Assembly: GCA_030671985.1 (NCBI GenBank) | Contig: DAOVHI010000092.1 | Location: forward strand, 1-5,947 | Reading direction: 5' to 3' | From: JAHJDO01 sp030671985 [NCBI: bacterium] | GTDB lineage: Bacteria > JAHJDO01 | DNA: 5,947 nucleotides | Shown: piece after piece, positions 1,729-5,071 of the stretch | How the letters are laid out: every line of letters begins with the position of its first letter | How positions within the stretch are numbered: position 1 is the first letter of the stretch | The notes under the pieces: model-generated | Databases searched by the model: none | Told to the model about the DNA's origin: nothing | The model's input: the letters and a program-made list of their open reading frames with translations, nothing else | Program-made: the position numbers and the translations under genes

Positions 1729-2268
1729 ATGAATAAATTCCCCACGAGAAAACCAATCAGATTGAAAGAATATGATTATTCTACGGCAGGGTATTATTAT
1801 GTAACGATTTGTACGAGAAACAGAGAAAATACATTTGGAAAATATGAAAATGTTGTAGGGGCGCTGCTTGCCTGCGCCCGCATAGAATTATCGATAATTG
1901 GGAAAATTATCGATAAACAATGGAACGATATAAAAAATCAATATGACAATGTCGAATTAGATCAATATATTATTATGCCAAACCATATTCATGGTATTCT
2001 AATTATAAACAAGCGGGAGGGGGCAAGCCCCTCCCCTACAATTTCTCAAATTATCCGTTCGTTCAAATCAAAATCCGCCCTTGAATATGTCAAATACATT
2101 AACGATAATAATTTGAATATTTCTGGCAAAATATGGCAAAGATCGTTTTATGATCATGTGATTCGAAACAAACAATCGCTAAACGCAATACGTGAATACA
2201 TTTCAAATAATCCATTGAAATGGGATGATGACGAAAATAATATCAAAAATAACAGATTAACGGGCTGA
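1729..2268 (+). CDS. REP-associated tyrosine transposase (RAYT, Y1/IS200-like HUH family)
   Basis: RAYTs are single-copy, domesticated relatives of IS200/IS605 transposases. They nick single-stranded DNA at REP palindromes through a 5'-phosphotyrosine. The N-terminus carries the usual RAYT opening (RKPIRLKEYDYSTAGYYYVT, residues 7-26). The HUH metal-binding motif is H86-I-H88 within MPNHIHGI. The C-terminal signature WQRSFYDHVIR (136-146) precedes REYISNNPLKW (155-165), where Y157 is the likely catalytic tyrosine. At 179 residues the length is normal and the frame intact. Residues 42-51 and 95-104 are encoded by REP-like palindromes lying inside the gene. No Shine-Dalgarno sequence precedes the ATG at 1729; upstream is an A-rich run. 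There are no obvious IS ends or target duplications, which fits a RAYT rather than a mobile IS. Its unlinked neighbours suggest it is a lone gene. Confidence 0.93.
   Translation: MNKFPTRKPIRLKEYDYSTAGYYYVTICTRNRENTFGKYENVVGALLACARIELSIIGKIIDKQWNDIKNQYDNVELDQYIIMPNHIHGILIINKREGASPSPTISQIIRSFKSKSALEYVKYINDNNLNISGKIWQRSFYDHVIRNKQSLNAIREYISNNPLKWDDDENNIKNNRLTG
1854..1881 (+). repeat. REP-like palindrome, copy 1 (inside the RAYT gene)
   Basis: This 28-bp element reads TGTAGGGG, CGCT, GCTTGCC, TGCG, CCCGC. GGGCGC (1859-1864) pairs exactly with GCGCCC (1874-1879) around a 9-base loop. It is GC-rich in an AT-rich gene and shares its ordered blocks with the copy at 2013-2040 on the other strand. Confidence 0.7.
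2013..2040 (-). repeat. REP-like palindrome, copy 2 (inverted, inside the RAYT gene)
   Basis: On the minus strand this 28-bp element reads TGTAGGGG, AGGG, GCTTGCC, CCCT, CCCGC. It is colinear without gaps with copy 1 and identical to it in the 8-, 7- and 5-base constant blocks. The plus-strand arms GGGAGGGG (2015-2022) and CCCCTCCC (2028-2035) form a perfect 8-bp stem around GCAAG. The variable blocks differ from copy 1 but stay complementary to each other. Confidence 0.7.
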
Positions 2269-5013: not shown

Positions 5014-5042
5014 TTGACATCCGAAACCTCTTGTCGTATTCT
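5014..5042 (+). promoter_or_regulatory. Sigma-70-type promoter of the GbsR-like regulator operon
   Basis: A consensus -35 box TTGACA (5014-5019) is followed by exactly 17 bp and a -10 box TATTCT (5037-5042, four of six). The expected start of transcription is near 5049, about 40 bases before the ATG at 5089. The -10 box lies inside the left arm of the palindrome at 5036-5071, so a protein bound there should block RNA polymerase. Confidence 0.7.
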
Positions 5043-5071
5043 ACGTTTAGAATGTTCTGAACGTAGAATAC
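5036..5071. promoter_or_regulatory. 36-bp nested palindromic operator over the regulator promoter
   Basis: The arms GTATTCTACGTT (5036-5047) and AACGTAGAATAC (5060-5071) are perfect 12-base inverted repeats. Between them AGAA (5049-5052) and TTCT (5055-5058) add four more pairs, with one T/G mismatch in between. The element also splits into two abutting 16-bp sites, ATTCTACGTTTAGAAT (5038-5053) and GTTCTGAACGTAGAAT (5054-5069). Each is itself an ATTCT-N6-AGAAT-like dyad, with centres 16 bp apart. It covers the -10 box and the predicted start of transcription and ends just before the ribosome binding site. The left arm lies mostly upstream of the transcription start, so a DNA operator is more likely than an RNA hairpin. 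The natural candidate ligand is the regulator encoded just downstream; that is inference. Confidence 0.75.

Follow-up and report, generated by a model that had tools for sequence, protein, structure and literature searches.

In-frame REP palindromes on both sides of the HuH motif of a subclass 2.4 RAYT gene, and a catalytic core that they may set loose

The insertion of a REP within the tnpAREP gene itself is described as a unique feature of subclass 2.4, where it is in frame, generally between HuH and Y, and in a peripheral region of the protein (Quentin et al. 2018, PMC6006769). This subclass corresponds to group 4 of Bertels, by Table 1 of the same work, and has an insertion of 8 aminoacids at the end of alphaB. 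For the large majority of its members, but not all, REPs are found at most 1 kb from the gene. According to the same text, a double-foot REP could derive from a central deletion between inverted REPs.

GTAG REPs within genes are reported to be in frame in ORFs, at times with two per ORF, and their feet often provide TAG stops (Di Nocera et al. 2013, PMC3733652). That text also relates that REPs have often been proposed as RNA elements, and names the Rickettsia palindromic elements (RPE), palindromes found as in-frame peptide inserts. In terms of mobility, excision of REPIN doublets was seen in reads of P. fluorescens SBW25 (Bertels and Rainey 2011, PMC3116915), and the TnpAREP of E. coli is described as cleaving at CT near GTAG hairpins (PMC8266576). 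As for a RAYT core bracketed by REPs, no literature was found by title or abstract opening, in a search that covered few subscription papers or preprints and no supplements.

Here, we analysed a stretch of 5,947 nucleotides (the window) from the bacterium JAHJDO01 sp030671985, whose genome of 1.25 Mb is termed G000. The window carries an intact RAYT gene with two palindromes of this type (Table 1).

Table 1. Positions of the RAYT gene, its two REPs and its motifs in the window.
Feature	Position	Strand	Description
RAYT/TnpAREP gene	1729..2268	+	intact ORF of 179 aa; HuH motif PNHIHG, WQ, Y motif YISNNP; subclass 2.4 type
Site-1 REP (copy 1)	1854..1881	+	GTAG foot at 1855-1858, palindrome up to 1879; VVGALLACAR (aa 42-51); predicted beta-hairpin loop before HuH
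Core segment between both REPs	1882..2012	+	holds the HuH codons, with PNHIHG at 1978-1995
Site-2 REP (copy 2), inverted	2013..2040	-	foot read as CTAC at 2036-2039 on the + strand; KREGASPSPT (aa 95-104)
Conserved W-Q codons (W136, Q137)	2134..2139	+	invariant and nearly invariant across 43 aligned RAYTs
Tyrosine codon (Y157) of YISNNP	2197..2199	+	invariant across 43 aligned RAYTs; presumably the catalytic tyrosine, by family knowledge

The encoded protein matches Y1_Tnp of Pfam (E 4.5e-9) and REP_Tyr_transpos of NCBIfam (E 1.6e-19). The latter match, at 70.3 bits, does not reach the curated cut-off of 80 bits, and the window RAYT stays outside this family by score. PDB sequences give weak matches only (2ec2, E 0.001; 4er8, E 0.048). 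An AlphaFold2 model, built from 43 aligned RAYTs out of 49 prepared references, has a mean pLDDT of 86.0. Foldseek searches with this model return IS200/IS605-type transposases as best matches, and place 4er8, a complex of RAYT and REP, at rank 15 (E 1.2e-6).

In terms of class, the HuH motif reads NHIH (aa 85-88), within the NH[IFV]H of subclass 2.4, and the WQ and YIxNNP of this subclass are present as W136-Q137 and YISNNP. Furthermore, the site-2 REP lies in the model between beta3 and alphaC, the place of the in-frame REP in subclass 2.4. Because the NHIH, WQ and YISNNP motifs fit Table 1 of Quentin et al. (PMC6006769), the assignment of the window RAYT as a TnpAREP of subclass 2.4 is well supported. 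On the window's contig, nothing outside the RAYT gene matches the GTAGGGG or GTAGGGAC palindrome patterns, the only two sought. The gene is therefore unlike a typical REPtron, REPs at most 1 kb away being an accompanying feature of subclass 2.4 and no strict criterion. A high-copy IS200/IS605 insertion sequence was also considered and set aside, as the other RAYT matches in the genome are at most 57% identical. The plasmid collection searched gave 9 RAYT matches, all of them distant.

The original prediction placed two REP-like palindromes in this gene, with coordinates, strands and lengths that are right. Both copies have the same anatomy, composed of a T, the GTAG foot, an 8-bp stem, a CTTGC loop, the stem again and GC, and they are identical at 22 of 28 positions. 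All 8 stem positions pair in copy 2 (GGGAGGGG/CCCCTCCC) and 7 of 8 in copy 1, which has one T-T mismatch (GGGCGCTG/CTGCGCCC), so that the earlier description of the variable blocks as largely complementary was fair. Each copy has 75% G+C, in a gene of 34% G+C. Their orientation is that of an inverted pair with feet outward, as in a REPIN, and no inverted-repeat pair of the window exceeds theirs in length, at 29 nt with 79% complementarity and 131 nt separating the arms. Site 2 agrees with the GI palindrome seed reported for P. fluorescens SBW25 (PMC3116915) at 17 of 18 bases, with none of 2000 shuffles as good.

When the codons of the whole gene are shuffled synonymously, the hairpin score of copy 1 is matched in 24 of 1000 shuffles and that of copy 2 in 15 of 1000, which is a harsh test, because the REP-derived peptides are retained. 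A third hairpin, A/T-rich (TTATCGATAA...), is found at 1888-1916 in the core beside site 1, with a score between those of both copies. It was rejected as part of the design, since the corresponding stretch of L013 is unpaired (by eye). The model puts site 1 between strands 37-40 and 51-54, with residues 45-47 having a pLDDT below 50, and site 2 between strand 86-93 and helix 105-126. Both inserts would sit in predicted loops, one on each side of the HuH motif.

Elsewhere in the window, another inverted repeat at 5036-5071 has arms of 17 nt that are 94% complementary and 2 nt apart. An ORF for a MarR-type regulator (Pfam MarR_2) has its likely ATG just 3' of this repeat, which is probably the operator of that gene.

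A search of G000 with the motif pattern of the original prediction, allowing at most 3 mismatches, gave 5 matches, namely the two copies and 3 others, with none in the reversed control. The identification as REPs held in this search, the motif being also present elsewhere in the genome. The pattern GTAGGGG-N8..24-CCC gave 30 raw matches against 27 in the reversed control. These raw counts were discarded as evidence, the control being about equally frequent, and palindromic matches were counted instead. At least 5 consecutive pairs from the foot are found at 20 distinct places, with nested matches and the second strand of a place counted once, a low copy number for a REP family. Six of these 20 palindromes lie in three RAYT ORFs, that of the window, one of contig C47 (L007) and a truncated one of C64 (L008), which make up 0.12% of the genome. 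Among the remaining 14, 7 are clear of any frame of at least 60 aminoacids, 5 overlap only frames of 65-129 aminoacids, and 2 overlap longer frames (200 and 576 aminoacids). A separate search for GTAGGGAC palindromes gave two further places in the genome, one of them (C66) in a frame of 534 aminoacids. The palindromes of the RAYT gene are of a type with the features of GTAG REPs, in which a palindrome bears a GT[AG]G foot and is present in the genome in several copies, mostly intergenic.

The core with its REP pair is not repeated in G000, where the core matches only RAYT genes (one of them the truncated gene of C64) and one fragment (C150). A composite repeat, with a REP followed by a ATGGATTCCTGCTAAAAATCTGCAGGAAT-like sequence, is present in the same genome at C16:10463, C111:100, C139:1436 and C70:9982, and in C150 (L012), where its neighbour is a RAYT HuH fragment with a REP at its end.

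For the comparison with related RAYTs, 74 ORFs were picked by likeness to that of the window, and 54 had all anchor motifs (the other 20 were dropped). A footed hairpin between HuH and Y is present in 42 of the 54, against 4.55 expected from synonymous shuffles, before HuH in 9 (0.35 expected) and at both sites in 8 (0.10 expected), rates that are not family-wide, because the sample was chosen by likeness to the window RAYT and the sequences are related. The nine with a hairpin before HuH are the window RAYT, L013, L014, L077, L087, L088 (an unlike RAYT of G004), and Flavobacterium L032, L036 and L054. L087 is counted only with the wider anchor, the narrower one giving eight RAYTs. REP sequences differ among groups of these nine, which suggests that REPs may have arrived separately at the same turn. 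The peptides at the same loop also vary widely among relatives, by REP family and frame.

Among the loci scanned, 61 of 81 RAYT ORFs have a footed hairpin, against 57 of 483 other ORFs of at least 150 aminoacids, a comparison that omits L128-L224 and counts among the 57 some RAYTs that escaped the motif or frames opposite a RAYT. In one Flavobacteriaceae RAYT (L039), the post-HuH loop contains a REP-derived peptide (ETRLIASNNIESIDNK) repeated roughly twelve times in tandem.

Covariation of the stem was assessed over 15 distinct REP 25-mers, taken from window-type RAYTs, their fragments and the genome. In this set, 95.8% of stem cells are paired, against a shuffled mean of 76.1, the cells changed on both sides are 19 against 4.9, and the covariation score is 0.526 against 0.162, with 0 of 500 shuffles as high for each of these values. 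A double change is present in 6 of 8 pairs (mean 3.1; 4 of 500 shuffles), and further pair types are 10 (against 7.2; 11 of 500 shuffles). Shifting the pairing structure by 1-3 columns lowers the covariation score to at most 0.216. This points to a pairing kept by the REP family, and does not extend to selection for pairing within the window gene, because the 25-mers are related to each other and some of the change comes from whole REPs being replaced.

Across nine two-REP segments, the two copies of one gene are closer than copies of different genes, with 189 of 225 positions identical where permutation gives a mean of 169.8 (15 of 5000 permutations as high), and this likeness is weaker without L088 (120 of 5000). 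In L078, two pairs are gone from the site-1 stem, at the place where the left arm agrees with site 2 of the gene itself, and the gene is still open. The left arm of this site is that of its own site 2 and the right arm that of site 1 of L077, which resembles a short conversion tract between both REPs. Site 2 of L077 and L078 still encodes RDEASPSPT, and its one imperfect pair is a G-T wobble, read on the REP strand. Homologues with the same peptides and without palindromes, which the original prediction took as a sign of plain coding sequence, are therefore seen in weak form, as this wobble and the two pairs lost in L078. Such imperfect stems mean that the hairpins are not perfectly maintained at every copy.

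The REP-like nature of the window palindromes is well supported, by the GTAG foot, the covarying stem and the further copies in the genome. Genome copies, recurrence, covariation and model support the earlier reading of REP palindromes, of the kind on which a RAYT acts, in a BIME- or REPIN-like orientation and carried as in-frame inserts in two loops.

In our view, two surface loops of this subclass 2.4 TnpAREP very probably each hold an in-frame REP of the RAYT's own type, with the following origin and fate. The REPs would have arrived through the REP-spreading activity of the RAYT itself, by single-strand cleavage and strand transfer at GTAG-hairpins, and would persist as the loop peptides are tolerated. 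The enzyme or slippage could still act on them, with possible loss, inversion or relocation of the intervening DNA. Points against this explanation are the sample picked by likeness, the within-gene likeness that weakens without L088, the stem decay in L078 and the absence of any other REP of the patterns sought on the contig. It is plausible that the window RAYT carries its own putative substrate in its gene, with indirect support from REP-bounded rearrangements in related genomes.

An added claim, compatible with this explanation, concerns what the REP pair does. The inverted pair would make the HuH-coding segment a unit, a REPIN-like cassette whose excision leaves an ORF that is in frame and lacks HuH, with one double-foot REP, and which is insertable elsewhere. 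We put this forward tentatively, as the cases are few. The first is L028 (G119:C80, 2004-2188), a 185-bp piece from GTAG to CTAC, with the same length as 1855-2039 of the window and 150 of 185 bases identical. Its flanks (120 bases) have 31 identities with those of the window, against 35.6 when shuffled, so the likeness stops at the REP feet. This core lies alone, foot to foot, between an isopropylmalate/isocitrate-dehydrogenase-type gene and a convergent ORF. It sits at the stop codon of the dehydrogenase-type gene, where the foot gives the G of TAG, as described for GTAG REPs (PMC3733652), an arrangement that argues for insertion of a unit.

Two other observations argue against it. There is no close donor gene for the piece in G119, where the next match is 49% identical. 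Imperfect direct repeats flank the pieces, with 9 of 12 positions at L028 and 26 of 28 at the same place in G383, which is unexpected for single-strand transposition of the IS200 type. The piece at this locus in G383 (L056) has the right REP and lacks the left half. No clean empty site for the insert was found in the family of G119 (3 genomes), where only G383 has the locus, with its shortened copy.

Loss of the core is seen in L103 (G004:C88, 1603-1630), an open RAYT frame of 123 aminoacids where one double-foot REP replaces everything between the sites and no HuH is left. The frame contains the N-terminal part to site 1, the double-foot REP and the part after site 2 (Y1_Tnp, E 8.7e-5). In L225 (G263:C19), a REP at 482-512, the core and a REP at 630-657 are followed by a core-less RAYT frame of 126 aminoacids, with a double-foot REP at 828-855. 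This frame matches Y1_Tnp at E 7.9e-4 and 20 bits, below the cut-off of 23, and the core piece has a stop directly after a HuH-like PDHVH. L112, in G259, is an intact relative whose site-2 REP is identical and whose site-1 REP is worn (81-85% over 26-27 nt). Lastly, L181 runs forward as far as the REP and continues with the reverse complement of the core (by eye). All these loci speak for a unit bounded by REPs. The region 3-1694 of L225, with the core-less RAYT and the relocated core, lies between Cas7- and Cas4-type genes, apparently within a CRISPR operon.

In terms of frequency, core-less RAYTs with a REP at the join are found in 2 genomes (G004 and G263) among the matches listed, with 385 genomes searched and 117 having a match. 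Of the 74 genomes in the phylum of G263, 20 have a match. Outside G263 itself (73 genomes), no short frame spanning both ends was found, three short frames aside. We chose 20 short-frame RAYT regions, of which 8 were read by eye (L225, L226, L230, L234, L235, L239, L240 and L242) and the other 12 were judged from tblastn spans, several of them ending at a contig edge. A REP is at the break in 3 of the 8 read by eye (L225, L226 and L235), and none is at the break in 4. L235 is a C-terminal fragment starting at a double-foot REP, L226 has a deletion starting at a REP, L240 starts at a REP with the preceding bases masked, and L242 starts away from its REP. A REP end on the right side only is seen in L012, of the window's own genome, and in L056. 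Ordinary decay is present too and counts against the added claim, with a core without REPs in L053, deletions away from REPs in L239 and L173, and fragments without REPs in L230 and L234.

Furthermore, a deletion between palindromes by replication slippage would leave the same scar as excision, and the core-less frames of L103 and L225 fit both. L028 and the core piece of L225 require insertion of the core, which slippage does not give, but for L225 duplication and subsequent deletion could. Part of the REP-bounded cases could be due to slippage or ordinary rearrangement. A RAYT-driven route for the movement of the core is possible, because the TnpAREP of E. coli is reported to cleave at CT (PMC8266576) and REPIN excision was seen in reads of P. 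fluorescens (PMC3116915). The rearrangements suggest, at the level of sequence, that the hairpins may be able to cut the catalytic part of the RAYT loose. We are slightly more hesitant about the general form of this proposal, a branch of subclass 2.4 where cognate REPs flanking HuH form a cassette, the enzyme or replication would cut the core out in frame, and the core would be carried to new sites. If true, this would be a transposase with a built-in, sequence-precise off switch and a means to spread its own pieces.

The REPs could also act in the mRNA as a built-in brake on the RAYT, each forming its own fold or both pairing together, with slower translation or faster decay as the effect. 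REPs as RNA elements are a frequent proposal (PMC3733652), and the strand at 1853-2041 folds at -65.8 kcal/mol with both REPs pairing. We find this reading improbable, given the many relatives with the site-2 REP only (42 against 9 of the 54), by which the long pairing is not conserved. Even less credible is a selection of the loop peptides for protein function with the palindromes as by-products: the frame of L078 is open despite the two pairs lost at site 1, but the peptide of a given loop varies greatly with REP family and frame from one relative to another, and the stems covary. Chance palindromes in plain coding sequence are next to impossible, being contradicted by the copies elsewhere in G000, the same two sites in relatives and the covariation, even if the single-site synonymous shuffles are only moderately extreme.

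RAYT genes whose catalytic core is bracketed by cognate REPs would give a direct test of REP movement by RAYTs. Loss of the core leaves a fixed scar, detectable by PCR, and the core is a countable product. If true, a mobile-element enzyme could be switched off in frame by its own substrate.

In comparison with known systems, the window RAYT has in common with subclass 2.4 the HuH, W and Y motifs, long GTAG and double-foot REPs, and an insertion in the post-HuH loop (beta3:alphaC) (PMC6006769). The main text of that paper, as far as it was available, has no pre-HuH site, no bracketing pair and no core that is missing or relocated. With intragenic GTAG REPs, the window gene shares in-frame palindromes, sometimes two in one ORF. 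The named targets of these REPs belong to various categories, many of them in DNA synthesis and repair, with RAYTs unnamed in the available part of that text (PMC3733652). As for RPE, the common point is that palindromes are tolerated as in-frame peptide inserts. RPE are longer elements of one lineage, and we know of no link between them and a RAYT. The inverted REP pair around a spacer is shared with the REPIN (PMC3116915). Unlike in a REPIN, the spacer of the window pair is RAYT coding sequence, there is no multi-copy family, and the pair is inside the RAYT gene. Since in-gene REPs are published (PMC6006769, PMC3733652), the window feature is of a known kind, in-frame REPs of subclass 2.4, here in a variant layout, and the excisable catalytic core is the novel reading.
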